This document shows, one piece after another, positions 11,954-50,298 of a stretch of DNA of 64,000 nt. The position numbers and the translations under genes were made by a program. The notes beneath the pieces were generated by a model. That model saw nothing but the letters and a program-made list of their open reading frames with translations. It was not told the origin of the DNA and made no database searches. Every line of letters begins with the position of its first letter. The stretch's first letter is position 1. The DNA comes from Fangia hongkongensis FSC776 = DSM 21703 (GTDB lineage Bacteria > Pseudomonadota > Gammaproteobacteria > Francisellales > Francisellaceae), in assembly GCF_000379445.1 (NCBI RefSeq), contig NZ_KB902274.1, positions 62,001 through 126,000 of the forward strand. Direction: 5' to 3'.

Positions 11954-11972
11954 GTAAATAACACCAAATCAT
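11954..11972 (-). repeat. 19-bp dispersed repeat, copy 1 (Ter-like candidate), left of dif
   Basis: The minus strand reads ATGATTTGGTGTTATTTAC, identical over all 19 bases to copy 2 at 16878-16896. A 19-bp identity in a 64-kb window is far beyond chance. It lies 1.4 kb left of dif in the opposite orientation to the two copies on the right. It also lies just after an ORF stop. Confidence 0.8.
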
Positions 11973-12118
11973 TATAGTTTCAATACGTATGATGAGTTAT
12001 GCTTAAGCGTATGTATATATCCTATAATTCTATGAATACTAAACTATTGTTTAGATGTCATAAAAAGCATATATTTAGGTATTCAAAGTAATATTGACAA
12101 CATACAGAGTGAGTAAAA

Positions 12119-12724
12119 ATGAAAGAAATCATGACATTAAGCAATAACTTGGTGCGTTTGGAGCTATTGTCTTATGCGCATTTAGAAGGTTTAGAGCAGG
12201 CAACACAAGATGGTTATCTATGGGAGCTGTGGTTTACAATCGTGCCTACGCCTGAAGACATGAGAGCTGATATTAAGCGTAGACTGAGACTCTATCAACA
12301 AGGTAGCATGTTGCCGTATACAGTTATTTGTCAAAAAAGTGGCAGAATTTTGGGCATGACTAGTTATATGAATATTGATCATGAGCAAAACCGTCTAGAG
12401 ATTGGTAGCACATGGTACGCGAAAGCTGTACACGGTACAGCAATTAATGTTGCCTGTAAGTTGCTTCTTTTGGAACATGCTTTTGAAGTGTTTAAGTGTA
12501 TTGCTGTTGAATTTAGAACACATCATTTGAATTTTGCATCGCGACGCGCCATAGAATCCATAGGTGCCAAATTGGATGGTATTCTGCGTAATCATCGCAA
12601 GATGCACAACGGCACACTACGTGATACTTGTGTTTATAGTATTATTGATTCTGAGTGGAAAACTATCAAAGCACATTTGAATTATAAGCTAATGGCAAAG
12701 CAGAGGAAATCAGCTGAAATCTAA
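12119..12724 (+). CDS. GNAT-family N-acetyltransferase (RimL-like)
   Basis: 201 residues of the RimJ/RimL-type acetyl-CoA-dependent acetyltransferase fold. Typical pieces are visible: NNLVRLELLSYAHLEGLEQA at the start, GMTSYMNIDHEQNRLEIGSTWY in the central strands, and NFASRRAIESIGAKLDGILRNH, the usual C-terminal motif. Substrate unknown; relatives acetylate protein N-termini, small amines or antibiotics. An in-frame ATG at 12131 is an alternative start. It overlaps convergent YqhA by 4 bp. Confidence 0.75.
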   Translation: MKEIMTLSNNLVRLELLSYAHLEGLEQATQDGYLWELWFTIVPTPEDMRADIKRRLRLYQQGSMLPYTVICQKSGRILGMTSYMNIDHEQNRLEIGSTWYAKAVHGTAINVACKLLLLEHAFEVFKCIAVEFRTHHLNFASRRAIESIGAKLDGILRNHRKMHNGTLRDTCVYSIIDSEWKTIKAHLNYKLMAKQRKSAEI

Positions 12725-13272
12725 TGTGGTTTATGAACTTTATGTTCAAGCCAGCCTGTAAAGGCAATCATAATGGCTGAAAATACAAAAACAAGGTGAA
12801 TAATCACATTCCATAAAAGCTCTCTATCAGAGATATGTGCAATATCTAAAAATTGCTTTAGCAGTGAAATGGAGGATATCGCTACAATTGACCCTGCAAT
12901 TTTCATCTTAACACCGGTAGGGGAAAGCTTTTTAATCCAAATTGGTTCTCCTTTATCATGGGCAACGTCTATTTTGGAGACAAAGTTCTCATAGCCGCTT
13001 ATTACAACAACGACAACCAAATTTGCAACTAAAGCAGCATCACATAAAGTCAGTGCAAATACGATAAGCTCGTGACCGCCAAAGTCTTTAATATTAATCA
13101 GCATCATTATGACAGACTTAGAGATGTCAAAAACAAAAGCTAAAAGTACCAATGACAAGACAAGATAAATGGGCGCTTGCAGCCATCGACTGGAAAAAAC
13201 AACTTTTTCAATACCCGTTTCAACTTTAGAGATTTTTCTAATACTATTATCAGTGTTAAGATTATTATCCAT
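12721..13272 (-). CDS. yqhA: UPF0114 family membrane protein YqhA
   Basis: 183 residues with the UPF0114/TIGR00645 pattern: EKVVFSSRWLQAPIYLVLSLVLLAFVFDI near the start, then hydrophobic segments near residues 35-60, 75-100, 125-145 and 155-175, with the family stretch VANLVVVVVISGYENFVS. Inner-membrane protein of unknown function. It is convergent with the GNAT gene and its 5' side faces the dif region. Confidence 0.88.
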   Translation of the reverse strand: MDNNLNTDNSIRKISKVETGIEKVVFSSRWLQAPIYLVLSLVLLAFVFDISKSVIMMLINIKDFGGHELIVFALTLCDAALVANLVVVVVISGYENFVSKIDVAHDKGEPIWIKKLSPTGVKMKIAGSIVAISSISLLKQFLDIAHISDRELLWNVIIHLVFVFSAIMIAFTGWLEHKVHKPH

Positions 13273-13406
13273 TTAAATTCTATTATGTAGTAGTGTGTTT
13301 TAAATACATAGCAATATTGTAGAGCAACAGTAATCAGCATTAAATAATTTATTGCAATAAAGGATAAAAAATCTATATCTATCAGAGGATAAGACATAAT
13401 AACATA

Positions 13407-13434
13407 AGTTCGCATAATATATATTATGTTAAAT
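13407..13434 (+). other. dif: Chromosome dimer resolution site dif (XerCD site)
   Basis: 28 bp made of a XerC arm AGTTCGCATAA, centre TATATA and XerD arm TTATGTTAAAT. Against the E. coli dif site it matches 25 of 28 positions: the XerD arm is identical, the XerC arm differs at two outer bases and the centre at one. It lies in non-coding sequence, as dif sites do. XerC and XerD recombine dimeric chromosomes here at division under FtsK control, so this marks the terminus of the replichores. Confidence 0.88.
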
Positions 13435-13490
13435 TATAGAATTAGAACTCCCTGCTTCATACGTTGCCTTGAAAGTATCACCGGTTAAAC

Positions 13491-13742
13491 CTATTTAAGA
13501 TTTACTAGATCTACAAAATCAATTACTCTGAGCTTGAATCCTGATGCCTGATTTTCAACAATTATATTATCATTAGTTAAATCTGCATGATAAAAAGATC
13601 GGCGCGATAAATTTTCAGGTCCATGCAGACCTCTCAGCTTATTTATTTCCTTTAATAAAAAATGTATTTCTTCATCATCATCTAGAGCCCTCAGCTTTTC
13701 CCCGCAGTCAAAAACCCAAAAAATGGCATTATCATGGCTTTT
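13491..13742 (-). pseudogene. Remnant of an APH/choline-kinase-like phosphotransferase
   Basis: A minus-strand frame open between a TAG at 13745-13743 and a TAG at 13493-13491, with no usable start codon. Its 83 residues include HDNAIFWVFDCGEKLRAL and the kinase motif FYHADLTNDNIIVEN followed by RVIDFVDL, which matches the HxDxxxxN ... D catalytic pattern of aminoglycoside/choline phosphotransferases. The N-terminal lobe with the ATP lysine is missing, so only the C-terminal catalytic part remains. A degraded gene next to dif fits the terminus as a region of gain and loss. Confidence 0.6.
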
Positions 13743-13789
13743 CTATATGACTTAATAATAATTTCTTGAAAAAAGTGTAAGAAGAACGT

Positions 13790-14497
13790 TTATTTTATTT
13801 TTGACAATAGAGCCATCGTTAGGAAAATAAGAATCATCACAAAGATAACTCCCCAAAAGTGCATAAACACATATCCGGTGACAGCAAGAATGCCACCTAG
13901 AGAAAAGCCTAATAAAGCACTGCCAAATACGAGAATATTTTTGACCGCATTTTTTTTCGAAATAATTGATTTACGATTGAATAGATACAGTAAAACTGCA
14001 GATAGATCGATAATAAATTGTGTAAAATTGCCTGTCATCATGGTCACTGGAGGTGATTTTTGTAAATAGAGCTTGGAAATCGTATTATGAATGGCCATTG
14101 CACAAACAGGCAACATACTTAAGAGGATAAAATTAAGTGACGTTACATTTAACTTAGGGGAAAGTGAGCCCAATAACATTAAGAAAAAGAAAAGCATTCC
14201 TTCTAGCGCTAGCCAGAAGACTAAATGCTTTCTCTTGACACCATGGAGCTCAATAATGCATGAAATAATGGCAGCAAAGACCATAAATACAGGGATTGCA
14301 ACGACCTTTGATGCAACCCCTGAGGTATCTGTGACTAAATAAGCAATAATAATCACAATGTTCCCAGTAATATGGGCTGTAAATAAATGAGCAAGGGCAA
14401 TAAAACCAAATACATCACTAAAGCCCCCTATTGCTGAGAGCAAAAACACAAGCGTTTTATTTACGCCGCAGTCTATGACGCCCAAATGTTGACTCAT
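13790..14497 (-). CDS. YoaK/DUF1275 family membrane protein
   Basis: 235 residues, six or seven predicted membrane helices, and the DUF1275 signatures HITGNIV near residue 42 and VTMMTGNFTQ near residue 155. Inner-membrane protein of unknown function, sometimes annotated as a transporter. Its promoter lies between 14498 and 14543, close to the rlmKL stop. Confidence 0.85.
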   Translation of the reverse strand: MSQHLGVIDCGVNKTLVFLLSAIGGFSDVFGFIALAHLFTAHITGNIVIIIAYLVTDTSGVASKVVAIPVFMVFAAIISCIIELHGVKRKHLVFWLALEGMLFFFLMLLGSLSPKLNVTSLNFILLSMLPVCAMAIHNTISKLYLQKSPPVTMMTGNFTQFIIDLSAVLLYLFNRKSIISKKNAVKNILVFGSALLGFSLGGILAVTGYVFMHFWGVIFVMILIFLTMALLSKIK

Positions 14498-14543
14498 ATA
14501 CGATTATAAAAATGATTTTGAATATCTAAAAAGATAGCATAAT

Positions 14544-16769
14544 TTATGATGATTTGTGTTTGATCTCCCAGCAATGATGGATGTTTGGACGGCGAAGAAA
14601 GTCTCTTGATAGGCATACTTTATCAATATTCTGGCAATGATATTTTTTCATCAGGTTTTCATCTAAGGTGAATTTTCTATAGTTATTAGAAAAATATAAG
14701 ATGCCATTTTCCTTTAATGATCGCATCGCAAGATCGATCAAAAGCGCATGATCACGCTGAACATCAAGTGTCTCTTGCATCTTTTTGGAATTTGAAAAAG
14801 TCGGTGGATCTAGGAAGATAACATCATATTGTTGATGGTTCTCCTTAAGCCATCCTATACAATCTGATTCAATAAATTCATACTTTTTACCCAAGCTTAA
14901 CTTATTTAATTCAAAATTTCGCTTTCCCCAGTCAAGGTAGGTTCGAGACATATCTACATTAGTAATGCGCTTAGCACCAGCTAAGGCTGCATGAACACTT
15001 GCAGTGCAGGTATATGAAAAGAGGTTTAATAAGGCTTTTCCTTTTGACGCTTTAGCGACAATTTGTCTTATTTTACGGTGATCTAAAAACAAGCCTGTAT
15101 CTAAATAATCATTAAAATTAACATAAAATAAGGCTTCATTTTCACGGACCACATGATAAGTTTTTTGTGCATCTAGCTTATGATATTGTGCTTTACCTGC
15201 TTGTTTTTTACGTGTTTTCAAATGAATGTTTTTATATGGGATATCTAGCGTGTGATGAATATGATACAGAATTTGCTTTAATCTTTTCTCTGCTGCGTTA
15301 TGATCAACATATTTCTCAGCTTGATATTCTTGTACATGCACGTGATTATTATAAAGATCAACGGCAACAGAAAACTCCGGAATATCAGCATCATAAAGAC
15401 GATAGCATTCAATTTCATTTTGTTTTGCCCACTTTCTCAGTTGGGTAACATTCTTATTTAAACGGTTTTTAAAAGAAAGATGCTTATCATCTTCATTAAT
15501 TGCCTGTTCAATGTGCCTTTTCTCTTTTTCGGCAGCACTTTCAAAGCGCATTTTTGATTGTGGATCAATGTTGATATGATAAAGAACCGTTTCAATCGCA
15601 CCGTTAAATAGCTTGTTTTGCTTATAACTTCTAAGAGAAAGAGATTTAGTTGTCTCTTTAAATCCACTAAATACACATAGTTTCCAGTCTTGAAAGTGAG
15701 ATAAAAGCTGATCTGAAAAGGTATTAAAAAGTGCTTTGAGCTTGTTTTCTTGTTGATGGTATAACCGCTCGCCATAAGGCGGATTGGTTAAGATAATGCC
15801 TTGTGCATCATCTGGCAGATCAGATAAGTCATATCGATCTAGTTTAGAGATATCCTGAACAGCAATACTGATTTTATTTTCCAAGCCAATAGCAGCAATA
15901 TTCTCTTTTGCTTTATCGATAACATAAGGATCAGAGTCATATCCTATAATGTGAATATCCTTTTTTCCTTGCTCGCTAAATTGATGTGAGTTTTTCTCCA
16001 TCATATCAAGAGCGTTTCTTTTAACCGATTCAAACAATGCTTGGTCATAGTCAAGCCAGTGCATAAAAGAAAAGTTTTCTCGATGAATATTAGGTAAAAC
16101 ACCATAGGCGATCATTGCCGCTTCTATTAAAAGTGTTCCAGAGCCACACATCGGGTCAATTAAGACAGGATGGCTATTTTCAATGAGTAGTGTTTGCCAA
16201 CCTGATCGATACACAATGGCAGCGGCAAGCGTTTCTTTTAATGGCGCCCTTCCCTGCTCAACTCTATAACCTCGCCTATGCAAGCTCTCTCCGGTAGCTG
16301 AGAGATACACACTTACACTGCCGCGGTGAAAGTGAAGTGAAATAATAATCTCAGGGGACTCTAAGTTAATATTGGGTCTAGCCTCACACTCATTACGAAA
16401 TTTATCAGCAACAGCATCTTTTGCCTTTTGCGCAGCATATTGCATATTATTAAATGCTCGATGCTTTCCAGTAACCTCAACTTTAAAGGTTTTATCTACT
16501 GCAAAGAGACTATGCCATGGTATTTCATATAATACTTGGTATAGCTCATCGGCATTTTCAATTTTTCTTTCATCTAATTTTAAATAAATTTGATTGGCAA
16601 TACGGGAGCTAAAGCAAGCTTCATAGAGCTTTTCGCGCGTTGTGACAAATGACACACCTGCAACGTGTAGTTTTGTATGGTGAATGCCAAGTGTATGGAG
16701 TTCACTTTGCAGCAAATCTTCAGTACTTTTTGCGCAACTGGCAAAACAGTCAATTGTATTTTGAGACAT
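14544..16769 (-). CDS. rlmL: Bifunctional 23S rRNA methyltransferase RlmKL (m2G2445 / m7G2069)
   Basis: 741 residues with both methyltransferase halves, as in gammaproteobacteria. A THUMP-type RNA-binding segment (~45-160) precedes the RlmL domain with DPMCGSGT from 205 and NPPYGER from 329. The RlmK domain follows with NLFSYTCTASVHAALAGA near 582-599 and DPPTFSNS at 654-661. It modifies two guanines of 23S rRNA using SAM. Single gene; the oxidoreductase upstream ends 123 bp away. Confidence 0.95.
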   Translation of the reverse strand: MSQNTIDCFASCAKSTEDLLQSELHTLGIHHTKLHVAGVSFVTTREKLYEACFSSRIANQIYLKLDERKIENADELYQVLYEIPWHSLFAVDKTFKVEVTGKHRAFNNMQYAAQKAKDAVADKFRNECEARPNINLESPEIIISLHFHRGSVSVYLSATGESLHRRGYRVEQGRAPLKETLAAAIVYRSGWQTLLIENSHPVLIDPMCGSGTLLIEAAMIAYGVLPNIHRENFSFMHWLDYDQALFESVKRNALDMMEKNSHQFSEQGKKDIHIIGYDSDPYVIDKAKENIAAIGLENKISIAVQDISKLDRYDLSDLPDDAQGIILTNPPYGERLYHQQENKLKALFNTFSDQLLSHFQDWKLCVFSGFKETTKSLSLRSYKQNKLFNGAIETVLYHINIDPQSKMRFESAAEKEKRHIEQAINEDDKHLSFKNRLNKNVTQLRKWAKQNEIECYRLYDADIPEFSVAVDLYNNHVHVQEYQAEKYVDHNAAEKRLKQILYHIHHTLDIPYKNIHLKTRKKQAGKAQYHKLDAQKTYHVVRENEALFYVNFNDYLDTGLFLDHRKIRQIVAKASKGKALLNLFSYTCTASVHAALAGAKRITNVDMSRTYLDWGKRNFELNKLSLGKKYEFIESDCIGWLKENHQQYDVIFLDPPTFSNSKKMQETLDVQRDHALLIDLAMRSLKENGILYFSNNYRKFTLDENLMKKYHCQNIDKVCLSRDFLRRPNIHHCWEIKHKSS
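16247..16254 (-). other. KOPS-like octamer, right of dif
   Basis: CCCTTCCC on +, so GGGAAGGG on the minus strand, pointing left toward dif. Inside rlmKL. Confidence 0.35.
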
Positions 16770-16877
16770 ATGATCTCTATCAGGTATAAATTAACAGCAT
16801 TATATCATTGGATAGATATATTTTTGAGATTATTTCATGCTAACTTTTAGAGTAAGATCAATGAGTGTGCTTTAAAT

Positions 16878-16896
16878 ATGATTTGGTGTTATTTAC
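16878..16896 (+). repeat. 19-bp dispersed repeat, copy 2 (Ter-like candidate), right of dif
   Basis: ATGATTTGGTGTTATTTAC, identical to copy 1, then GC as in copy 3. It overlaps the stop codon of the minus-strand oxidoreductase gene. It lies 3.4 kb right of dif on the + strand. Confidence 0.8.
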
Positions 16897-17942
16897 GCAT
16901 ATAATTTCTTACCTATCTCCGAGCTTTTTATACACATTTCAATCATCTCAATAAGACCCACAGCCTCCTCTGGCGTGACAGGAAGCGGGGAGTTAGTTAA
17001 AATTGCATTAGCTATTTGATTGTAATAGATCCTGTAATCTCCAGCAATTGTTGCAACTTTCTGCTCTTTGCCATCGATATCTGTTTTGATACCATATTGA
17101 GTGCTCTTTTCTATTCCCAGAGCATCACTTGGTTTTTCTCCTTGCTTTAATCGCTCCTCTTGAGGGTCAAGACCATATTTTACAAAACTTCCCTTATCTC
17201 CATGAACAGTGAAACGCGGCATTGATGCTTTAACAACACTTGCTGAGTGTAAAATGACCCGCAAATCATTATAACCTAAAACAATATGGAAATAATCATC
17301 CACCTTCGCCCCCTCTCTTGTCTTGGCAACATCTGCAATAATCCAATGAGGCTTACCAAATAAAACCATAGCCTGATCGATCAAATGCGCACCCAAGTCG
17401 TATAAAACACCGCTTCCTGGCTTATCCTGCTCACGCCACTTTTGCAAATCTACATGTGGGCGAAAACGATCAAAATGACTTTCAAAAGTATAAATTTCAC
17501 CTAGCGCATTATTATCTAACAGTGTTTTAACCGTCATGAAATCACCATCAAAACGTCTATTTTGATATACGCTGAGTTTCTTATCTTTCAATTGGGCAAT
17601 CTCTTTAAGCTCCAAAGCTTCTTCTTTTGTAATGACAAAAGGCTTATCAACGACCACATGCTTATCGGCCATAAGCGCAGCTTTAGCAAGTGCATAGTGC
17701 GTATCTGTTGGTGTTGCAATTACAACCAGGTCAATTTGATCATCCTTAAGTACTGCATCCACATCCGCTAGAACTTTAACATTTGGATAGCGTGAGCTAA
17801 TTTCGTTTTTTCTTGAGCTAACAATAGCGCTAAGTGTTAAACTCTCTACTTCTTCAATCACAGGGGCATGAAAAGCAGATCCCGCAAGCCCATAACCAAC
17901 CAGTGCAACATGAATATTTTGATTTTTTTGATAATCAGACAA
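16893..17942 (-). CDS. Gfo/Idh/MocA-family NAD(P)-dependent oxidoreductase
   Basis: 349 residues. The N-terminal Rossmann segment is VALVGYGLAGSAFHAPVI, followed by ATPTDTHYALAKAAL and the catalytic-type HVVVDKPFVITKEEA (family EKP). The C-terminal dimer domain has QKWREQDKPGSGVLYDLGAHLIDQAMVLFG. It resembles YdgJ/YvaA-type sugar or inositol dehydrogenases. No sugar-metabolism neighbours are seen, so the substrate is unknown. Its stop codon lies within a copy of the 19-bp dispersed repeat. Confidence 0.85.
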   Translation of the reverse strand: MSDYQKNQNIHVALVGYGLAGSAFHAPVIEEVESLTLSAIVSSRKNEISSRYPNVKVLADVDAVLKDDQIDLVVIATPTDTHYALAKAALMADKHVVVDKPFVITKEEALELKEIAQLKDKKLSVYQNRRFDGDFMTVKTLLDNNALGEIYTFESHFDRFRPHVDLQKWREQDKPGSGVLYDLGAHLIDQAMVLFGKPHWIIADVAKTREGAKVDDYFHIVLGYNDLRVILHSASVVKASMPRFTVHGDKGSFVKYGLDPQEERLKQGEKPSDALGIEKSTQYGIKTDIDGKEQKVATIAGDYRIYYNQIANAILTNSPLPVTPEEAVGLIEMIEMCIKSSEIGKKLYA

Positions 17943-18094
17943 AATTATACTTCCTAGGTTTCTATAGGGTATAAATCTACAGCAGCTAGATGCACTTGCC
18001 TAGCCCTATTTTTTCTATTTTTAATCTTTCTCTTATCATTCAGTTAGAATCTATCATAAAATAAATATAAGATAATAAAAACAATCTAAAACAA

Positions 18095-18847
18095 ATGAGA
18101 ATCTCTAGAGTCTATAGTGATACTATACATGCTGGTTTAACATCAACCACACTCTCATCAACATTAAGCCATTACTTGATCCGAGTTTTAAGGCATAAAA
18201 AATCGCATCAAGTCAAACTCTTTAATAACCATGACGGGATAGAGTATTTAGCTGAAATTACAGATGCCAACTCAAAAGGCTGTACTTTAGAGGTTATTGA
18301 CGCATATAAAGTATTCAATGAATCACCTATTAAGATCCACCTTTATCAAGCCTTGTCAAAAGGAGGAAAGTTTGAGGCCGTGGTACAAAAAGCAACTGAG
18401 CTTGGCGTCAATACCATCACCCCCATGATAACAGAGCATGTCGATTTTAAACTGCCGACAGAGAAGCTTGAGACTAAAGTGTCACACTGGCAAAAAGTGG
18501 CAATTAGTGCTGCTGAGCAATCTCAACGTGTCTTTTTTCCGAAGTTATCAACCCCGATGTGCTTTAATGATGTGCTAAAAGAAAAAACAACAATAAAAGC
18601 AGCTGATCAGCTTTTTGTGCTTTTGTGCCCACATCAAGGGATATCCATTCAAAAGCTTCATAAGCAATATCCAGATGTAAAAGCTATTCATCTTTTCATT
18701 GGACCAGAGGGAGGCTTTTCTGAGACTGAGAACAATCAATCCTTGGATTTAATAGAGCGTATTAAACTTGGTCCTCGTGTGCTTAGAACTGAAACCACGC
18801 CAGTGGCAATATGTGCGATCATTCAAACACTATGGGGTGATTTTTAG
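18095..18847 (+). CDS. rsmE: 16S rRNA m3U1498 methyltransferase
   Basis: 250 residues with the SPOUT-fold RsmE pattern: an N-terminal PUA-like part (HYLIRVLRHKKSHQVKLFN), then IHLYQALSKGGKFEAVVQKATELGVNTI, ISAAEQSQR, LFIGPEGGFSETE and LGPRVLRTETTPVA forming the trefoil knot and SAM site. It methylates U1498 near the decoding site. It stands alone between the oxidoreductase and purM. Confidence 0.95.
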   Translation: MRISRVYSDTIHAGLTSTTLSSTLSHYLIRVLRHKKSHQVKLFNNHDGIEYLAEITDANSKGCTLEVIDAYKVFNESPIKIHLYQALSKGGKFEAVVQKATELGVNTITPMITEHVDFKLPTEKLETKVSHWQKVAISAAEQSQRVFFPKLSTPMCFNDVLKEKTTIKAADQLFVLLCPHQGISIQKLHKQYPDVKAIHLFIGPEGGFSETENNQSLDLIERIKLGPRVLRTETTPVAICAIIQTLWGDF

Positions 18848-19025
18848 TGCATATGTTTATGTTATTGATCATAATGAATCAGAGACAATACAACAATTAG
18901 TGAGGACGCAAACTCTATCTAGTGACGAATAAAGACACGCCTCTCTATTACTGATAGTCTTTGCAAAGAAGGAAAGCCAGCAAGCATTTAAACCAATATT
19001 ATTCAGGATATTCTTGAAAAATAGT

Positions 19026-19055
19026 TTGTGATTACTCTCTTCTCCAAGGTATAAT
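19026..19055 (+). promoter_or_regulatory. Candidate purMN promoter
   Basis: TTGTGA (19026-19031), 18 nt, and a perfect TATAAT (19050-19055), about 32 nt before the purM start. The leader would be about 25 nt with no good Shine-Dalgarno. The rest of 18848-19086 shows no gene I would support. Confidence 0.6.
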
Positions 19056-19086
19056 TTGCACACATTTACCAGCCAACCTGTGCTTT

Positions 19087-20130
19087 ATGTCAACAAAACA
19101 CCTAAGCTATAGTGATGCCGGCGTAGATATCGATGCCGGAAATGCCCTTATCGAACAAATTAAACCTTTTGCTAAAAAAACCATGCGCCCTGAAGTGTTA
19201 ACAGGTCTTGGTGGCTTTGGCGCCTTATTTGAGCTGCCACTTGATAAGTATAAAAACCCTGTACTCGTCTCTGGAACAGATGGTGTTGGGACAAAGCTTA
19301 AGCTTGCCTACGATGCTAATATGCACGATAAAATTGGAATTGATCTTGTAGCCATGTGCGTCAATGATCTTATCGTTGGTGGTGCTGAGCCTCTTTTTTT
19401 CCTCGATTATTATGCCACAGGAAAGCTAAGTGTTTCTCAAGCGACTGATGTAATAAAAGGTATTTCAGAGGGCTGTCTTCAAGCTGGCTGCTCTCTTGTT
19501 GGAGGCGAGACGGCTGAAATGCCTGGCATGTATAATCAGGATGAGTATGATCTTGCTGGTTTTTGTGTTGGTATCGTTGAGAAATCCAACATAATAACAG
19601 GTCAAAAAGTTAAAGAAGGCGACCGATTGATCGCCCTTTCTTCTTCCGGCATTCATTCAAATGGCTACTCTCTTGTACGTAAAGTCATTGAAATGAATAA
19701 TCTCTCACTTGATATGCCTTTTTTAGACAGCACATTAAAAGCACATCTTTTAGCACCAACTCGTATCTATGTGAAAAGCATTTTGGAACTCTTGAAAACC
19801 TTTGATATTCATGCCATTTCTCATATAACAGGTGGTGGATTTACAGAAAACATCCCGCGTGTATTACCTGAGTATAGCAATGCAGTGATTGATTTATCCA
19901 GTTGGGACTTCCCGCCTATTTTCAAATGGTTAGCAGAAAAAGGAAATATTGAGCAACATGAGATGCTGCGCACATTCAACTGTGGTGCCGGAATGATTCT
20001 GAGTGTTGCAAAAGAAGATGTCACAAATGTTATAGATGCACTTCATACTCTAGGTGAAAACGCTTGGGAGATTGGAGAGATTAAAGCCGGGGCGCAAAAA
20101 ACACCTTTTGTTTCCTACCAAGAAACATAA
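19087..20130 (+). CDS. purM: Phosphoribosylformylglycinamidine cyclo-ligase (AIR synthetase)
   Basis: 347 residues, normal length. PurM closes the imidazole ring of AIR with ATP in purine synthesis. Conserved parts: [86 protein letters not shown] and [15 protein letters not shown]. Six bp separate it from purN, the gammaproteobacterial order. No strong ribosome site precedes the ATG. Confidence 0.97.
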
Positions 20131-20136
20131 AGATTT

Positions 20137-41701: not shown

Positions 41702-42052
41702 TTACTCATCCAAATAATAGTATACCGGTGACATTGCTGCCAAATGTTCATGTAACTTTTGAAGCTCCACCCTTGGACCATGTACCTCAAGTTGCACAAT
41801 CTCCGATACAGATAACAGCTCATCAATCAAAGTCTTGGTGCTTTCTATATGTTCAAGTAAAGCCAGTGCATTAATATAACCCTCTCGACAATGCATCATG
41901 TGATCGTTAAACGTAAAATTATAAAACAAACACCCAGACTCCTTTTGCGTCAATGACACCAATTGCTTTGTAATTGACTTTGCTTGCTCAAGCGCACCGT
42001 CATTGATTTTAAAGTAAGGAACAATCGTACAAAAATTATCATTTAGTTTCAT
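41702..42052 (-). CDS. Antibiotic-biosynthesis-monooxygenase-like (ABM, dimeric alpha/beta barrel) protein
   Basis: 116 residues. CTIVPYFKINDGALEQAKSITKQLVSLTQKESGCLFYNFTFND and CREGYINALALLEHIES follow the ABM strand-helix-strand pattern (here with ESGCLFY for the usual E-GC--Y). Relatives are cofactor-free monooxygenases or stress proteins. Function unknown; upstream of OYE on the same strand with a 108-bp gap. Confidence 0.65.
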   Translation of the reverse strand: MKLNDNFCTIVPYFKINDGALEQAKSITKQLVSLTQKESGCLFYNFTFNDHMMHCREGYINALALLEHIESTKTLIDELLSVSEIVQLEVHGPRVELQKLHEHLAAMSPVYYYLDE

Positions 42053-42238
42053 TGGAAAACCCCTCTTTTGTGATTCAGGTTAATATTTTTATTTTACAAG
42101 GTAGAGTCAGTATAGCTCTCATCTTTTAGTGATAGCCAGCATAACAGCCAACTAATAGAGCTATTTCATAATATTTCAATACTCTGCTTTGTCCTAATAA
42201 GTGACATCTCAAATATTGCTATTTATAAAAATTTTGTC

Positions 42239-42270
42239 TTGACTTTAACCTATAGGTAAAGCTGTATTTT
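42239..42270 (+). promoter_or_regulatory. MerR/CueR-type promoter-operator of the multicopper oxidase gene
   Basis: -35 TTGACT (42239-42244) and -10 TATTTT (42265-42270) are 20 bp apart, longer than normal. The palindrome ACCTATAGGT (42248-42257), extended by CTTTA/AAAG flanks, sits between them. This is the layout of MerR-family activators, where the protein twists the long spacer. With a multicopper oxidase downstream, a CueR-like copper sensor is likely. No merR-type gene is in the window. Confidence 0.65.
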
Positions 42271-42313
42271 ACTCATATAGACAATGTGATAATAAATAAC
42301 CTGAGGAAAGACC

Positions 42314-43777
42314 ATGAAACTGATTCGCTTCATTTATATCATTAGCATTATGATGATAACCAGTAGCGCACTACTGATTGCAGCCCCCATCAATCTTTAT
42401 GTAAAAAAAGAGAAAATAAACATTAATAATAAGACCGCCCAAGTTTATACCATTCAACAGAAAAACAAACAAGAAGGCTTTATTGGCACTGTTGGCGATA
42501 ATTTTAATGCCATTATTCATAATGACACACAATCACCACTTACCCTTCACTGGCATGGCTTAATTGATCCAAGTAAAGAAGATGGTGTGCCTTATTTGAG
42601 TCAGCTTCCTTTGATGCCAGGGAAAACTGAACATATCAAATTCCCTCTTGTACAAGCAGGTACTTATTGGATGCATTCACATTATCAGCTTCAAGAAGGC
42701 TCACTGATGTCTGCCCCCTTTATTATTTTGCCTAAAAAACCAAGAGCTATTGCCAAAGATGCAAAAGACATCACGGTTATGATTGAAGACTATAGTTTTA
42801 AAGCACCTGAGGCGATTCTTGCTGATTTAATTAAAAACTCACAAAAGCCAATGAAAGGTGACAGTAAGCCTGATTTATTTGATGTGAAATCAGATGCCTT
42901 GCTCGCCAATAGACACACGCTGAATAACCCTCAAGTTATTGATGTGCAAGCGAATCAAAAAATACGACTTCGCATGATTAATGCCGCCTCAGCGAATAAT
43001 GTCTATGTTAAGTTTCCAAAGTCCATTATCGCAGCAGCAATTGCCAAAGATGGCTCTAATCTTAAGCCTTATTATGGACAAAAATTTCAACTCAGTGTTG
43101 CCAGTAGATTAGACTTTATATTTACGGTTCCCCAAGTAAAAGAAGGTGTTTTCCCAGTATTTATTCAAGCAGAAGGCAGAAGACTCAGAACCGGAATTAT
43201 CTTTCGTGTAGGTAATGCTAAATTACCTGTTTATTCGGAGTATGCCAATAAAAAAACAAAAGGATTTAGCTATTTACAATATTACAATATGCACCCACTC
43301 AAAGCACTTAAAAAACGACCGGTTGACAGAACACTTATCTATAATCTCACTGGAAAAATGTCTGGTTATATATGGGGTATTAACGGTGCCTCATGGCCTA
43401 ATATTAAACCATTTTTTATTAAAGAAGGTCAAAGAGTGCAAATGATCATTAACAACACCACTTCAATGGCACACCCAATGCACTTACATGGTCATGTTTT
43501 TCAGTTAATTGCTATTAATGGCACTTACATTAATGGATTTGAAGGAGACACAATTGATGTTCTACCGCACAGTAGCGTGACTCTTGAGTTCGATGCAAAT
43601 AACCCAGGCATTTGGGCATTTCACTGTCATTTAATGTATCATCTGGCAGCAGGCATGTTCACATCAATCAACTATGCCAAAGTTGACCCACCGCAATTTT
43701 ATCTCAATAAAATCCACATGACTAAACAACAATATGATACTTGGAAAAAACAGAATCTATCAACCAGTACAGAATGA
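42314..43777 (+). CDS. Multicopper oxidase (periplasmic, CueO/CumA type)
   Basis: 487 residues with an N-terminal signal peptide. All four copper motifs are there: HWHGL from 79, MHSHYQ around 121-123, HPMHLHGHVF, and HCH at 437-439 with H443 and axial M448. So the type 1 and trinuclear sites are complete. It would oxidise Cu(I), phenols or Fe(II) in the periplasm. Preceded by a MerR-type promoter and an AGGA ribosome site. Confidence 0.92.
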   Translation: MKLIRFIYIISIMMITSSALLIAAPINLYVKKEKININNKTAQVYTIQQKNKQEGFIGTVGDNFNAIIHNDTQSPLTLHWHGLIDPSKEDGVPYLSQLPLMPGKTEHIKFPLVQAGTYWMHSHYQLQEGSLMSAPFIILPKKPRAIAKDAKDITVMIEDYSFKAPEAILADLIKNSQKPMKGDSKPDLFDVKSDALLANRHTLNNPQVIDVQANQKIRLRMINAASANNVYVKFPKSIIAAAIAKDGSNLKPYYGQKFQLSVASRLDFIFTVPQVKEGVFPVFIQAEGRRLRTGIIFRVGNAKLPVYSEYANKKTKGFSYLQYYNMHPLKALKKRPVDRTLIYNLTGKMSGYIWGINGASWPNIKPFFIKEGQRVQMIINNTTSMAHPMHLHGHVFQLIAINGTYINGFEGDTIDVLPHSSVTLEFDANNPGIWAFHCHLMYHLAAGMFTSINYAKVDPPQFYLNKIHMTKQQYDTWKKQNLSTSTE

Positions 43778-43788
43778 TCTCAATCTTT

Positions 43789-44808
43789 CTAAAGAGAACC
43801 CGGTGTTTCTACTTCAGTATTTTCAAGAGGCTCAGAGGCCTCTTTTTCTTCATTTAACCCCTCTAATGGCGCTTCATCAAGTGACTGCTCATTTTGTTCA
43901 TTTTGCTCTTTTTGATGCTTTGCAAAGATCGCTAAAACCTCAGAGACAAACTCACGCAGTGTCTCAACCATAATGGTAAAATCAGCGTCAAAACGTGCTT
44001 CTTTTGTTTCAGTAACAATATCATTGGCTTTATCTTGAACATACTCTAAATATTTAATAGATTTAATCATAAATTCATCGTTGAGAATAAATGACAATTG
44101 CTCTTGCCATGACAAGCCAAGTTGCACTACCTCTCTTCCAGTATCAATCAAAGACTGGATATCCTCTGTTAACAGATTCTGCTTTTGACAGCGAATAACA
44201 CCAGATGAATCTTCATTGTCCTGTAATACACACTGATCTTCAATGGTAAGACTCTGTGGGTATTCATTTGTCTTTACCCAATTGGTTAAAATCATTGATA
44301 TTGGTAACAACTCTGGAATGCGGATTTTGAGACTTCCTAATGCTTTACGTAAATTGACAGTCACTAAATCTGCTTTTTTGCTTGAAGCTGCATTGACGAT
44401 AAAAAGCCCTTTTAACTGGTCAATATAAGCATAGGTCACTGTATTTCGTGTAAAGGCGCGCGGTAAAAGCGTCTGAAAAATTTCCTCTTTTAATGTATCT
44501 TTTTCTTTTTTCTTAACTTTTCTGGACTCTCTAAGCTCTATTTCCTCTACTTTTTCATCTAATAGCTCTTTCACTACACTTGCAGGAACAATTTTTTCTT
44601 GCACTTGAAATGCAATCATAATTGCACCTTGCGCTTGATGGATTAATGGACCATCATGTGTAGAAAATGGAGAAACCCAGCCCATAGAAATAGGAACGCT
44701 AGATCCACAAGGGACAAACTTATGATCACTAAGTGCTTTTTCTAGTGCATCGCACTCTGTCTCAAAAGGTGCTAAAAATTCAAATATTGATAAGTTTTTA
44801 AACCACAT
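43789..44808 (-). CDS. rdgC: Recombination-associated protein RdgC
   Basis: 339 residues. MWFKNLSIFEFLAPF, FVPCGSSVPISMGWVSPF, LPRAFTRNTVTYAYID and the C-terminal SFILNDEFMIKSIKYLEYVQ match RdgC, a DNA-binding ring that limits RecA loading. The last ~40 residues are an acidic, Glu/Gln-rich tail (KEQNEQNEQSLDEAP...) beyond the usual family end. Convergent with the multicopper oxidase, 11 bp between stops. Confidence 0.93.
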   Translation of the reverse strand: MWFKNLSIFEFLAPFETECDALEKALSDHKFVPCGSSVPISMGWVSPFSTHDGPLIHQAQGAIMIAFQVQEKIVPASVVKELLDEKVEEIELRESRKVKKKEKDTLKEEIFQTLLPRAFTRNTVTYAYIDQLKGLFIVNAASSKKADLVTVNLRKALGSLKIRIPELLPISMILTNWVKTNEYPQSLTIEDQCVLQDNEDSSGVIRCQKQNLLTEDIQSLIDTGREVVQLGLSWQEQLSFILNDEFMIKSIKYLEYVQDKANDIVTETKEARFDADFTIMVETLREFVSEVLAIFAKHQKEQNEQNEQSLDEAPLEGLNEEKEASEPLENTEVETPGSL

Positions 44809-44924
44809 AAAATTTTCCTCTTCATCTTAAATAAAAGTGGCACAAAAAAAGACTCGTGCCAATTCTATTTTTACTGCTTTTATCGTATTTTTTTAAAAAT
44901 ATGGTGGTTAACACCAAGGGTGTA

Positions 44925-45725
44925 CTATTTAAAAATAACCGTCTGCTTTTTCGCCGCATTTTCTAAGGATTTTAAATAGCTGTTCTTTGGATAGTTTTTT
45001 CTTAAAATTTCAAGATATTCCTCTGACTGATCAGGAAGTTTCAAAATATCATAGGCCTGAATGGTTAAGACCAATGCATCTTGAATAGCATTACTTTGCG
45101 GATAGTCTTTGATAACGATTTTTGCACGGTTAATCGCAGCGACATAGGCTTCATGATCAAAATAAAACTTAGCAATATTGTACTGGTACTCTCCAACCGT
45201 GTTATTAATATAAATCATCCGCCTTGTCGCATCTTCCACATAGCTGCCTTTTGGATTAATCAATACCGCTTTTTTAAACTGATTATATGCTTCAATATAG
45301 GCTTGTGGATCATGTTGAGCCATGTCATATGGAAGGCGCCTTTGTAAAAAGCCTCGCCCATTATCAAAGTTCATCACACCCATCATATAATACACATACC
45401 CCAGATGTTTAGAAGTTGGATAGGCTCTTAGAAATTGCTGGGCAAGACCCAGCGCCATTGCTGAGTCATTATTTTGATAATACGCATAAATTAAATCTAA
45501 ATTTCCAAGCTCGGTATATTTTTGAAATGGATATTGCGCATTCAATGATCGAAAGGTTTTAATGGCATCATAGAAATCTTCATTTTGAATCTGCTCATGG
45601 CCTTTGGCATAGATATACTTTGCACTTTCGCCCTGGTAAGGCAAAGGCTCTTTATCTGTAGAGGCACACCCTGTCACAAGGGCTAAAACACTCGCACCAA
45701 CAACTGCCATTAAACTCTTTTTCAT
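44925..45725 (-). CDS. bamD: Outer membrane assembly lipoprotein BamD
   Basis: 266 residues. Lipoprotein signal with lipobox LVTGC (C20), then TPR-like repeats: EQIQNEDFYDAIKTFRSLNAQYPFQKY, LAQQFLRAYPTSKHLGYVYYMMGVMN and AYNQFKKAVLINPKGSYVEDA. BamD is the essential lipoprotein of the BAM complex with BamA. Divergent from rluD, as in E. coli. Confidence 0.95.
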   Translation of the reverse strand: MKKSLMAVVGASVLALVTGCASTDKEPLPYQGESAKYIYAKGHEQIQNEDFYDAIKTFRSLNAQYPFQKYTELGNLDLIYAYYQNNDSAMALGLAQQFLRAYPTSKHLGYVYYMMGVMNFDNGRGFLQRRLPYDMAQHDPQAYIEAYNQFKKAVLINPKGSYVEDATRRMIYINNTVGEYQYNIAKFYFDHEAYVAAINRAKIVIKDYPQSNAIQDALVLTIQAYDILKLPDQSEEYLEILRKNYPKNSYLKSLENAAKKQTVIFK

Positions 45726-45810
45726 TTATTTACCTTTATTTGTTAACTTAAATGGGATTTATTCGTTAAAATACTCCCAATTAAAGTAATACATTACGTG
45801 GAATTTATTT

Positions 45811-46893
45811 GTGTCACATCATACCGCATTTAGCGATATTCATCAAAATGTTATTGTACCAGATGAGCTTGCTGGAAAGCGATTAGATCAGGTATTATCT
45901 ATGCTTTTTGATAGTTATTCTCGCTCCCAGTTGCAAAAATGGTTAAAGCAAGGTGATATTTTAATCGATGGAGAAATAAAAAAGGCTAAGGATAAGTTAA
46001 TTGGGGGTGAGCATATTTCATTGAATATTGCCCTTCAAACACAAACTATCTGGCAAGCAGAAAAGATGCCGCTTGATATCATTTATGAAGATCAGGATAT
46101 TATTGTCATTAATAAGCCTACAGGCTTGGTTGTGCACCCAGGCGCTGGAAACACCTCTGGCACGCTATCAAATGCACTTTTAGCACATGATGAAGCCTTT
46201 AGCAAAGTGCCTAGAGCTGGCATTGTCCATCGTTTAGATAAAGATACATCAGGGCTGATGGTTGCGGCAAAAACCCTGAGTGCTCATGCTTCCTTAGTTG
46301 ATCAATTATCAAAAAGAAAGGTGAAAAGAGAATATGAAGCTATTGCTACAGGCTATATTACTGTAGGCAGTACAATTAAAACCAAAATTGGGCGCTCTCC
46401 TCATAATCGCCTTAAAATGGCAGTAACCCCTACAGGTAAAGATGCAATCACTCACTTTATTATTCTCGAGCGATATAGAGGACATACTCGAATTCGTTGC
46501 AAACTAGAGACAGGTAGAACACATCAGATTCGCGTTCATATGCAACATGTTCGTGCACCACTTTTAGGCGATCCTGTTTATAACCCACGTTTGAAGTTGG
46601 TAAAAGGCAGCTCTGAAGCACTGCAAGAGGTACTTAAAAACTTTAAACGCCAAGCACTTCATGCTTATAAGCTTGCGTTTATACACCCTATTACAAAAGA
46701 AGAAGTGACTTTTAGTGCTAAGCCACCTGAAGATATGCAAAGCTTAATTAAGCTGTTAAGAGAAGATGCCAAAGCTTTATATGAATATCAAGATTCATTT
46801 GACGACTTTGAGGATTTTGATGAGTTTGAAGCGTATGATGATGACGATGACTATGGTGATGACGATGAAATGGAATTTGAATATCGCCCTTAA
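45811..46893 (+). CDS. rluD: 23S rRNA pseudouridine synthase RluD, with acidic C-terminal tail
   Basis: 360 residues from GTG. An S4-like domain (~15-75: GKRLDQVLSMLFDSYSRSQLQKWLKQGDI) precedes the RluA catalytic domain with the active-site Asp in RAGIVHRLDKDTSGLMVAAK and GRTHQIRVHMQH. RluD makes pseudouridines 1911/1915/1917 in 23S rRNA. The last ~30 residues (from about 330) are almost all Asp, Glu, Phe and Tyr, an acidic tail absent from E. coli RluD. Divergent from bamD across 85 bp. Confidence 0.94.
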   Translation: MSHHTAFSDIHQNVIVPDELAGKRLDQVLSMLFDSYSRSQLQKWLKQGDILIDGEIKKAKDKLIGGEHISLNIALQTQTIWQAEKMPLDIIYEDQDIIVINKPTGLVVHPGAGNTSGTLSNALLAHDEAFSKVPRAGIVHRLDKDTSGLMVAAKTLSAHASLVDQLSKRKVKREYEAIATGYITVGSTIKTKIGRSPHNRLKMAVTPTGKDAITHFIILERYRGHTRIRCKLETGRTHQIRVHMQHVRAPLLGDPVYNPRLKLVKGSSEALQEVLKNFKRQALHAYKLAFIHPITKEEVTFSAKPPEDMQSLIKLLREDAKALYEYQDSFDDFEDFDEFEAYDDDDDYGDDDEMEFEYRP

Positions 46894-46929
46894 ACGACAT
46901 CTGACAACAAATAGTTCTTAGGTTTAAGC

Positions 46930-47625
46930 TTAATTAACCACTGCTGGCGCAATATAAAGATAGATAGCAAAAAAATGCGCTATGCTTCCTGCTAAAACAA
47001 ACAAGTGCCAAATGACATGACAATATTGTATGCTTTCATCTAACATATAAAACACCACGCCACTTGTATATAGAATTCCGCCAAGCACAATCCACATTAA
47101 ACAAGCAGCTGGCAATGCACTGACAATTTGTACGATAAACCCAAGTGCCACCCATCCCATAATGACATAAAGCGCAGTAGAGAGCCAACCATCGCCAAAA
47201 TAAAAAAGCTTATAAATAAGACCCACTAAAGCCACTCCCCAGAGGATAGAAAAGATAATCCAACCATAGGGGCCATAAAGCGAAATAAGTGCAATGGGTG
47301 TATAGGTCCCAGCAATTAGAAAAAATATATTCAGATGATCTGCTTGGCGCAATCTACGCTTCCACTTGGAGGTTTTTGCTGCATGATAACAGCTGGAGGC
47401 ACCATACATTGACACCAAAGAGGCCCCAAAAATACTCACTCCCACTACATTAATCACACTGCCAAAAGTTGCCGCTTTAACAATCAAAAGTATCAACGCA
47501 ACAACACTTAATATAGCACCCACAAAATGCGTTAGCGCATTGAACCTTTCTTCATTTTGGCTGTACATATTCTCTTTATTCAGCGCATTATCTGCAAGCG
47601 CGCTATTTATCATCTTGATATCCAA
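46930..47625 (-). CDS. Hemolysin III / PAQR family membrane protein (YqfA-like)
   Basis: 231 residues, seven helices. ERFNALTHFVGAILSVVALILL, SSCYHAAKTSKWKRRLRQADHLNIFFLIAGTYTPI and CHVIWHLFVLAGSIAHFFAIYLY carry the conserved Ser/His/Asp residues of the putative metal-dependent site. Inner-membrane protein; the hemolysin name is historical. Convergent with rluD. Confidence 0.93.
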   Translation of the reverse strand: MDIKMINSALADNALNKENMYSQNEERFNALTHFVGAILSVVALILLIVKAATFGSVINVVGVSIFGASLVSMYGASSCYHAAKTSKWKRRLRQADHLNIFFLIAGTYTPIALISLYGPYGWIIFSILWGVALVGLIYKLFYFGDGWLSTALYVIMGWVALGFIVQIVSALPAACLMWIVLGGILYTSGVVFYMLDESIQYCHVIWHLFVLAGSIAHFFAIYLYIAPAVVN

Positions 47626-47751
47626 TGTTCATTGTATTCTCCTACATATTTCGTTATTCCTTTTAAAAAAGCAAGTCATATCCAAAGAAAGTTCTTTTTG
47701 ATCTACACTTAACTTACAAACACTTACCTACATTGCTATGCTACCGTTAAC

Positions 47752-48567
47752 ATGAGCCTTATAGAGAAACTAGCAAACAAAATCACACACTTTTTAACTA
47801 CCAATGTGGAGAAATCACGAAAAGTGCCCTTGAGTGATTTTAAGGCGCTTTGCCAAAATATTGTGCCTTGTGATGTGATTTTAGTTGAGGGAAGGAGTCG
47901 CTCTGCCAAAGCAATTAACTACATAACTAAAAGTGTCTGGACGCATTCGGCTATTTATATTGGGACAGTTAACGAGATACCCTCTTGTTTTAACAAAAGT
48001 ATGAATTTAATTCAATTCCAACAAACGGATCGTATTATTATTGAGAGCAATTTAGGTGAAGGTGTGATTGTTACAAGCTTAGAAAAATACAAAGAAGAGC
48101 ATATTCGAATCTGCCGACCTACTGGAATCAGTGAAAATCAGAAAATCACTGTACTCGAATACCTCTCAACACAAATTGGTCATCCATACGATGCACGGCA
48201 GATTTTTGATCTGGCACGCTTTTTCTTCCCATGGTGGGTTTTGCCAAGGAAGTGGAGATCAAGTCTGTTCCAACATAATGCACAAAGTCATACCAAAGCA
48301 AGCTGCTCACTACTCATTGCAAATGCTTTTATTAATGCACGTTTTCCTATTATCCCAGTAATTGAGAGAAAAGGCTCTTCTCATTATTTTGAAGCCATCA
48401 TTCGAAACCCAAGACTTTTTGTTCCTGCTGATTTTGACTACTCTCCTTTTTTTAATATTATCAAATATCCTATTATTCAATTAAACGGAAGACATCAAGA
48501 TCATATCACTTGGGATGACTCAAGCATCAGTAATGATGAATATGGCATCACTAAATCACCGTCATAA
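47752..48567 (+). CDS. YiiX/YebB-like permuted NlpC/P60 papain-fold protein
   Basis: 271 residues. CDVILVEGRSRSAKAINYITKSVWTHSAIYIG has the His of the permuted NlpC/P60 (DUF830) family, and TKASCSLLIANAF the nucleophile Cys of the other half. Such enzymes act as amidases or esterases on peptidoglycan or lipids. No signal peptide, so probably cytoplasmic. Its 3' end overlaps nfsA by 17 bp (convergent). Confidence 0.82.
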   Translation: MSLIEKLANKITHFLTTNVEKSRKVPLSDFKALCQNIVPCDVILVEGRSRSAKAINYITKSVWTHSAIYIGTVNEIPSCFNKSMNLIQFQQTDRIIIESNLGEGVIVTSLEKYKEEHIRICRPTGISENQKITVLEYLSTQIGHPYDARQIFDLARFFFPWWVLPRKWRSSLFQHNAQSHTKASCSLLIANAFINARFPIIPVIERKGSSHYFEAIIRNPRLFVPADFDYSPFFNIIKYPIIQLNGRHQDHITWDDSSISNDEYGITKSPS

Positions 48568-49279
48568 AACCTTGCTCTTTCAACGCATTTTGCATAAAAG
48601 GTCTCGCTTCTTTTGCCAGTTTGGCCTCAATATCATCTGACCAGCTATTGTCTTTTTTATTATTCGTTCTGTTTTTATAGTACTCTCTCACTTGTTGATC
48701 GTATTGATCAAGTGCATCTCTATCGAGTGATTGGTAGCGATCTTCATGTACAAAAATATCAACCGGCAACCTTGGTTTGCACTCTGGGGATTCTTCAGGA
48801 TACCCTAAACAAAGTCCCATCAAAGGGAATACCTGACAAGGGAGCTCTAAAAGCTTACAAACTTCAAGTGGGTTATTTCTGATGCCGCCAATAAAGACAC
48901 CACCTAAAGATAATGACTCTGCAGCCAATAGTGCATTTTGCCCCATAATGCCAGCATCAACTGCCCCTAGTATCACCTGCTCAGTATATCCATAGCACCC
49001 CTTAGGAACTATCTTTTGATGTCTTGCATAATCAATACAAAACACCCAAAATTCAGCGGCATTTCCTACATAAGGCTGATTACCTGTCAGTGTGACCAGT
49101 TTTTCTCTTTTATCCTTATTCACAACACGAATAATACTAACACATTGTACAAAGCTGGAACTTGACGCAGAGATTGCTGCTGTTAAGATTTTCTCTTGTA
49201 TCTCACGGCTTAATGGTTTTGCCGTAAACTTACGTATTGATCGGTGAGATTTCATTAAATCAACAACCGTATTTTGCAT
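48551..49279 (-). CDS. nfsA: NADPH-dependent nitroreductase/FMN reductase (NfsA family)
   Basis: 242 residues. HRSIRKFTAKPLSREI opens the family; SASSSSFVQCVSIIRV binds FMN, GGIRNNPLEVCKLLELP and VFPLMGLCLGYP follow as in NfsA. It reduces nitro compounds and quinones by two electrons. It follows the Tus-like gene on the same strand with an 83-bp gap. Confidence 0.9.
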   Translation of the reverse strand: MQNTVVDLMKSHRSIRKFTAKPLSREIQEKILTAAISASSSSFVQCVSIIRVVNKDKREKLVTLTGNQPYVGNAAEFWVFCIDYARHQKIVPKGCYGYTEQVILGAVDAGIMGQNALLAAESLSLGGVFIGGIRNNPLEVCKLLELPCQVFPLMGLCLGYPEESPECKPRLPVDIFVHEDRYQSLDRDALDQYDQQVREYYKNRTNNKKDNSWSDDIEAKLAKEARPFMQNALKEQGFMTVI

Positions 49280-49362
49280 AACATACCCTCTAAATACCTT
49301 CCAACTGATTGGCAGTCTCCAGTATCACTATAAGGTTGTCAAGCACTCTAAGCTAAATCTCT

Positions 49363-50217
49363 CTAACTTTTGGTATATATTGGCAAAGAGTCGATAATAG
49401 GTCCAATATAATCTCCGGCATCAAGGCGTTTTTTGCGCACACTCATTACATTATAACTGTAGTGTAACGGTAATTCGCTGCAAACAAATACAGGCGTGCT
49501 ACAAATAACCCGCATTGGGCGCCTGTCATTCAAGGTGTAAATATTTACCGCATGCCTTATCTCTCTATCGTATCTCATATAGAAAATCTCCGAGGCATCA
49601 TAATGCTGAATACAAGAAATCTCTTTTGTTATTTCAAGATCTATTTTTTTCAATGCATTTAATTTCTTTAACAAGGCCTCTTGTGTTAATTTGTTGCTAA
49701 CCACATTCTTCTCATGATAAAAGGTCATATGAGTGATATTGCCCTCTATCATATACAAGTGGCGATTAAGCATTTTCCAATTAATACGCTTATGAAACCG
49801 TGTGGATTTAAATAGCTGTATATAATGAGCACTTCCTTTATAAAGCGCCTTTACACTTGTGATTTGCTCCTTGATTGATTGTTTTTCTCTATTTACTATT
49901 TCAATATAATGACTAATATCTTCTTTGATTGCTTTTGGAATATCAATATAGCCAACTGCGACAGCTGTATGTCCACTTTCCAGCACATCAGTATTCATAT
50001 ACGATAGACTCATATCCAACAATTTTTCAAGTGCCATCTCTTTTTCATCGCAATTGAGCCCTTCTGTATAATAAAGATGCCATTTTACCTGTGAGGCAGA
50101 TTTCATGATTTTGTCAATAAGCTCAGCGCTATAGTTATCAATTTTTGTCAGCGAGGCATGGATATTATTTTCGTGCTTTTTGAGTGTGAATTCTTCTGGT
50201 TGCTTTGGCTTTTTCAT
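49363..50217 (-). CDS. Candidate Tus-like replication terminus (Ter) binding protein
   Basis: 284 residues, no signal or membrane segment, rich in Lys and Tyr. By eye it follows E. coli Tus (309 aa) in order and spacing: AVAVGYIDI...DISHYIEIVNREKQSIKEQI (Tus AAVRLPGVL...LVSHIQHINKLKTTFEHI), NWKMLNRHL at 146-154 (Tus FEWVHRHL, the Ter-locking pocket), KLTQEALLKKLNALKK at 176-191 (Tus NLHRDEVLAQLEKSLK), CSTPVFV at 239-245 (Tus CPTPLIA) and a similar C-terminal tail. Pocket residues differ: Tus F140 aligns with W147, H144 with N151. Identity is low and no profile search was run. The nearby dif and the repeat ahead of it favour the reading. Confidence 0.5.
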   Translation of the reverse strand: MKKPKQPEEFTLKKHENNIHASLTKIDNYSAELIDKIMKSASQVKWHLYYTEGLNCDEKEMALEKLLDMSLSYMNTDVLESGHTAVAVGYIDIPKAIKEDISHYIEIVNREKQSIKEQITSVKALYKGSAHYIQLFKSTRFHKRINWKMLNRHLYMIEGNITHMTFYHEKNVVSNKLTQEALLKKLNALKKIDLEITKEISCIQHYDASEIFYMRYDREIRHAVNIYTLNDRRPMRVICSTPVFVCSELPLHYSYNVMSVRKKRLDAGDYIGPIIDSLPIYTKS

Positions 50218-50251
50218 CTACTAAGAACATTATCTTCAATCTTCTTAGTAG
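50218..50251. repeat. Perfect inverted repeat abutting the Tus-like start codon
   Basis: CTACTAAGAA (50218-50227) and TTCTTAGTAG (50242-50251), 14-nt spacer, perfect over 10 bp. It begins directly before the ATG (50217) where a ribosome site should be, and its far arm borders the -10. Either an operator or an mRNA hairpin limiting translation. Confidence 0.6.
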
Positions 50252-50278
50252 GATAGATAGCAATATTAAAAAACACAA
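50250..50278 (-). promoter_or_regulatory. Candidate promoter of the Tus-like gene
   Basis: On the minus strand TTGTGT (50278-50273), 17 nt, TATCCT (50255-50250). The 19-bp repeat ends 2 bp upstream of the -35 and the inverted repeat starts at the -10. Confidence 0.45.
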
Positions 50279-50279
50279 C

Positions 50280-50298
50280 ATGATTTGGTGTTATTAAC
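50280..50298 (+). repeat. 19-bp dispersed repeat, copy 3 (Ter-like candidate), upstream of the Tus-like gene
   Basis: ATGATTTGGTGTTATTAAC, 18 of 19 bases as copies 1 and 2, followed by GC like copy 2. It lies 63 bp ahead of the Tus-like start and 14 bp after the permease stop, on the + strand as copy 2. In E. coli a Ter site lies just ahead of tus in the same way. Confidence 0.75.

Follow-up and report, generated by a model that had tools for sequence, protein, structure and literature searches.

One long-standing idea holds that replication fork traps avert head-on collisions at highly transcribed genes, chiefly ribosomal RNA (rRNA) operons. In Escherichia coli, the sequence AGNATGTTGTAACTAA is found on the plus strand at TerC and TerB, right of dif, and on the minus strand at TerA, left of it; forks that have already gone past dif are stopped at TerC and TerB. 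Resident tus genes have been listed for Enterobacterales, Pseudoalteromonas and Aeromonadales only (Galli et al. 2019, PMC6549158; PMC10331603), a list that does not include the family of Facilibium and Cysteiniphilum. Here we describe a 19-bp sequence (consensus ATGATTTGGTG[T/C]TATTAAC, hereafter the 19-mer) and a tus-like gene in a 64,000-nucleotide stretch of the Fangia hongkongensis chromosome (the window; positions 62001-126000 of contig C36, NZ_KB902274.1, in a 2.95-Mb draft genome of 37 contigs). The analysis shows the positions and polarity of the sites, predicts a Tus fold, and finds site and gene occurring together, and close to each other, in three genera. From this we infer with considerable confidence that the 19-mer is bound by the Tus-fold protein that 49363-50217 encodes and serves as a one-way fork barrier, forming a trap around dif, probably mediating autoregulation of the gene, and perhaps guarding rRNA operons.

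Three copies of the 19-mer lie in the window, together with dif and the gene:

11954..11972, minus strand: Ter-like site left of dif, exact 19-mer, with its ATG end towards dif; predicted to stop leftward-leaving forks

13407..13434, plus strand: dif, the chromosome dimer resolution site (AGTTCGCATAATATATATTATGTTAAAT), at which the GC skew switches sign; the only such site in the genome

16878..16896, plus strand: Ter-like site right of dif, exact 19-mer; predicted to stop rightward-leaving forks

49363..50217, minus strand: tus-like gene, 284 amino acids, predicted to encode a diverged Tus-fold protein

50280..50298, plus strand: Ter-like site 63 bp upstream of the tus-like gene start, 19-mer with one mismatch

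The first-pass annotation of this DNA had reported the three copies with these coordinates, strands and mismatch counts (0, 0 and 1) and had placed the third just ahead of the Tus-like gene, all of which we confirmed. No other match exists in the window at up to 3 mismatches; 100 shuffles gave a mean of 0.05 matches, and none reached 3. The innermost sites, which flank dif, are 4.9 kb apart, and the one at 16878-16896 overlaps the stop codon of gene 16893-17942. Just left of the first site, at 11595-11930, is an interrupted open frame resembling a gene remnant.

Across the whole genome, the 19-mer has 14 matches at up to 3 mismatches, compared with 2 for a reversed control pattern, and 12 at up to 2 mismatches:

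C36, 61699 (minus), 73954 (minus), 78878 (plus) and 112280 (plus): Ter-like sites around dif (75407), at up to 2 mismatches

C12, 1265 (minus) and 16848 (minus): Ter-like sites, at up to 2 mismatches

C2, 58728 (plus), and C15, 17386 (plus): Ter-like sites, at up to 2 mismatches

C1, 427 (minus); C6, 421 (minus); C3, 98520 (plus); and C33, 180852 (plus): rRNA-adjacent copies of ATGATTTGGTGCTATTAAC, at contig ends

The contig carrying dnaA (C35) has no convincing site. Each of the 12 lies on the minus strand where the plus-strand GC skew is positive and on the plus strand where it is negative, with the switch at the single dif (one-sided binomial, 2.4e-4; with the four rRNA copies counted once, 9 of 9, two-sided 0.004). 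Base composition cannot account for this polarity, because the G-rich 19-mer sits on the G-poor strand and composition would favour the G-rich leading strand. The direction of blocking was assigned from positions alone, since similarity to the E. coli Ter core is not significant; because the orientation of TerC and TerB stops forks past dif in the E. coli control, we predict that forks are blocked at the ATGATTT end. The first-pass annotation had noted the opposite polarity about dif, as Ter sites need, and this holds at 12 of 12 genomic sites. It had also expected few copies confined to the terminus; this is not what we found, as four copies are at rRNA 3' ends and others on further contigs. 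Instead of dozens of copies without an orientation switch at dif, which it had named as evidence against Ter function, we found these 14 matches, with all copies at up to 2 mismatches sharing one origin-facing polarity.

The same survey bears on a competing explanation raised in that annotation, in which the 19-mer is a 3' untranslated region or transcription-terminator element that follows genes in the sense orientation. In the window, each of the three copies does come after a stop codon and reads in the sense direction as its complement, GTWAATAACACC, a placement that polar sites would adopt by default because genes are mostly co-directional with the fork. Genome-wide, the association fails, as the 19-mer is also found past the terminators of rRNA operons, in the gap between two gene starts and inside coding sequence. 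The copies at C36:61699 and at position 542 of a Facilibium contig (C101) have no preceding co-oriented stop, the gene-proximal copy in Facilibium falls within the tus-like gene's 5' leader, and at the rRNA operons a recognisable terminator comes directly 3' of the 5S gene, some 140 bp ahead of the copy. In addition, the 19-mer lacks a G+C-rich hairpin followed by a T run, and the genome total is 12-14 copies. We consider a terminator or 3' untranslated region role highly improbable and have rejected it.

Structure prediction for the 284-residue protein (AlphaFold; predicted local distance difference test 73.5, predicted template modelling (TM) score 0.69) retrieved E. coli Tus from the PDB (4xr2, 4xr0, 4xr1 and 1ecr; E-values of 2e-10 to 2e-8, probability 1.00, TM-scores of about 0.56-0.59); the next entry scored E 0.02, leaving Tus as the only significant match. 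Identity to E. coli Tus in the structural alignment is about 10%. An hhalign comparison of six homologues with nine Tus sequences (that of E. coli plus eight distant Tus-like proteins) gave a probability of 98% over 261 columns. The E-value of this profile alignment refers to one comparison only and calls for caution; the result is strong only with six against nine diverse sequences, as four homologues against the lone E. coli Tus sequence reached 0.3%. In the C(6) and lock pocket of E. coli Tus (I79, F140, H144 and L150), I145 aligns as the hydrophobic equivalent of L150. Taken together with a homologue that passes the Pfam Ter model, the predicted fold and the profile alignment indicate that the product of 49363-50217 is a diverged Tus. 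Neither this protein nor its Cysteiniphilum counterpart had a match in a plasmid collection. Five more families of Gammaproteobacteria also contain diverged Tus-like proteins, most of them scoring close to the cut-off of Pfam Ter (L053-L061; G062, G129, G134, G136, G148, G206, G250, G312, G349).

The nearest homologues are found in Facilibium subflavum (G005), Cysteiniphilum litorale (G011), two unclassified Thiotrichales (G002 and G010) and a further genome, G007. The F. subflavum protein, 46-47% identical, is the one that passes the curated cut-off of Pfam Ter (PF05472), with 23.2 bits, and in this genome the same motif brackets dif:

Facilibium C101, 542 (minus), 3502 (minus), dif at 4711, 6987 (plus) and 13801 (plus)

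A further site on Facilibium C96 precedes the tus-like ATG by 18 bp, and a site just upstream of the tus-like gene is common to all three genomes with close homologues, namely F. hongkongensis, Facilibium and Cysteiniphilum. An unsupervised search for 13-mers that keep one polarity about dif in both F. hongkongensis and Facilibium returned only this motif, with 8 copies and none reversed; the opposite-polarity control of this search was uninformative, being identical to the reverse complement. Among 51 genomes, 17 sites occur with at most 1 mismatch to TGATTTGGTGYTATTAAC, all of them in the three genomes with close homologues. One C-variant copy (ATGATTTGGTGCTATTAAC) at Facilibium C96:42236-42254 lies in a coding frame, not beside rRNA in the assembled sequence. 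The fork-trap interpretation of the first-pass annotation is thus supported by the polarity of 12 of 12 sites, the Tus fold, and the same arrangement of protein and site in another genus.

In C. litorale, the homologue is encoded on a 118-kb contig that also carries ParB- and TraG/D-like genes, and two sites facing opposite ways, 230 bp apart, lie beside it. The gene is likely part of a plasmid fork-trap relative, and the plasmid-like context fits the view that chromosomal traps are plasmid-derived (PMC6549158). The dif region of C. litorale has no convincing copy. The tus-like locus of this genome (G011, C4:9107-10228, L102) also shows a local change of GC skew, negative values giving way to positive ones in the manner expected close to an origin. 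A second tus-like clade of the same family, about 20% identical (L064-L066), comprises the genes of G002, G010 and G007; in these three genomes no related motif was found near dif, near 5S genes or upstream of the gene, and the k-mer search yielded no credible candidate. The tus-like gene of G007 is about 557 kb from dif.

We propose the following model for the function of the system. The protein would bind the 19-mer, most likely as a monomer, as Tus does. The bound protein would form a one-way barrier whose ATGATTT face, always directed towards the terminus, stops DnaB-led forks that have passed the terminus and are heading originwards, while forks travelling from origin to terminus would pass. 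The sites flanking dif would then constitute a fork trap that keeps fork fusion within a short stretch. Through the copy upstream of its gene, the protein probably represses its own synthesis, and the site at 50280-50298 is a candidate for both fork arrest and autoregulation, by analogy with E. coli TerB. At the rRNA operons, the copies would keep escaped or ectopically started forks from entering the four operons head-on.

Several observations weigh against this model. The 284-residue protein has no PF05472 match even at E 10 and no NCBIfam match, and the C(6)-binding pocket residues F140 and H144 of E. coli Tus are not clearly conserved in the profile alignment. The best ungapped match of the 19-mer to the E. 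coli Ter core is 11 of 19 positions (shuffle p 0.22); the first-pass annotation had likewise described this likeness as weak, and we have dropped it as evidence for Ter identity. The sites at C2:58728 and C15:17386 are in coding sequence and could be chance matches, the site upstream of the tus-like gene showed no recognisable promoter, and the draft assembly leaves the rRNA contigs unplaced relative to origin and terminus. In one alternative, the Tus-like protein binds the sites mainly as a transcriptional operator or a chromosome-organising mark, with fork arrest lacking or incidental. A copy in the gene leader in three genomes, sites far from dif, and lock residues of the E. coli type that are not clearly conserved are compatible with such a role, but an operator would not be expected to have a Tus fold, a strict polarity relative to replication or sites on both sides of dif in two genera, and we judge it unlikely.

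What is the relevance of the copies at rRNA operons? Each of the four contig ends with 23S-5S genes, on which the operon number rests because no 16S gene is assembled in this genome, carries a 19-mer past the 5S gene, at a distance of 161-165 bp and on the opposite strand (4 of 4 assembled operon 3' ends). A terminator-like hairpin directly follows the 5S gene, about 140 bp before the 19-mer. In this orientation, the copies are predicted to be permissive for origin-to-terminus forks and to oppose head-on entry from the 3' side of the operon. The remaining 5S gene (C6:10632-10746), some 10 kb away from the end of an rRNA operon, stands alone; it has neither a 23S gene beside it nor a Ter-like copy. 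The association is so far limited to F. hongkongensis: no site was found at the assembled 5S genes of Cysteiniphilum or at the four 5S genes of G007, and Facilibium has a lone 5S gene without a site, its operon flanks not being in the assembly. Searches of the open-licence literature turned up no description of a natural Ter site beside an rRNA operon in bacteria.

These copies may have been selected as barriers, or they may be passengers, an outer Ter site beside one operon having been spread by duplication and gene conversion without any guarding role; the latter concerns the rRNA copies only and is compatible with the fork trap around dif. The copies have flanking sequence in common, and the operon tails cease to be homologous within about 10 bp beyond the 19-mer, pointing to shared ancestry, and neither Facilibium nor Cysteiniphilum has such copies. 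Against a passenger origin, the 19-mer falls within a 45-base block that is identical in the four tails, the longest such run, whereas 33 of the 166 columns between 5S and site vary, and all four operon 3' ends carry a site with functional polarity. We regard passengers as a real possibility, if somewhat doubtful. We are nearly evenly divided on the far-reaching proposal that the sites constitute a bacterial ribosomal DNA (rDNA) fork barrier, placed by natural selection behind every operon to keep out forks that oppose rRNA transcription, a parallel to the unrelated eukaryotic barrier, with the same protein also serving the terminus trap, and that this family, separately from Enterobacterales, domesticated the system from a plasmid form of the kind that Cysteiniphilum still carries.

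With candidate barrier sites directly behind rRNA operons, the idea that fork traps prevent collisions becomes testable. The findings also add one gammaproteobacterial family, the one to which Facilibium and Cysteiniphilum belong, to those published as having resident Tus-Ter systems. Cysteiniphilum, Facilibium and F. hongkongensis form a plasmid-to-chromosome series that bears on how fork traps are domesticated, and a protein below the Pfam threshold with a new site sequence may offer an orthogonal barrier pair for replication research.

How does the system compare with those already described? Plasmid Tus, known from R1-like plasmids and the second chromosome of Pseudoalteromonas, is mirrored by the C. 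litorale homologue on its 118-kb contig with two opposed sites, whereas the sites in F. hongkongensis and Facilibium are chromosomal and surround dif. Among chromosomal traps, the arrangement resembles type II (Toft et al. 2021, PMC8707476), with several sites per arm and a tus-vicinal site that is not the innermost, but unlike the bearers of type I and type II traps, F. hongkongensis falls outside Enterobacterales. The 18-kb trap of Dickeya paradisiaca was singled out as narrow (Toft et al. 2021, PMC8707476); the innermost sites described here are closer still. RTP-Ter of Bacillus subtilis is a functional analogue with an unrelated dimeric protein and unrelated bipartite A/B sites; the fold of our protein matched only Tus, and nothing here linked it to RTP, at which no search was aimed. 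Whereas the rRNA operons of E. coli are all near the origin, the yeast barrier prevents head-on entry into rDNA (reviewed in PMC4999828). The rRNA-linked copies appear to be new and unexpected, and their likeness to the eukaryotic barrier is one of position and orientation, with candidate barriers placed 3' of the rRNA genes against head-on forks; the yeast protein is unrelated, and its target is a tandem repeat rather than dispersed operons. With Tus-Ter of E. coli and other Enterobacterales, the system shares the Tus fold, opposite-facing sites about dif and a TerB-like site upstream of the tus-like gene, reproducing the order TerA (minus), dif, TerC (plus), TerB (plus) upstream of tus. It differs in a protein too diverged for Pfam Ter, in a site not significantly similar to the E. 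coli core, and in the additional sites at rRNA operon 3' ends. By analogy, the system would thus act like Tus-Ter, with a diverged Tus-fold protein and a site that is not an E. coli-type Ter.

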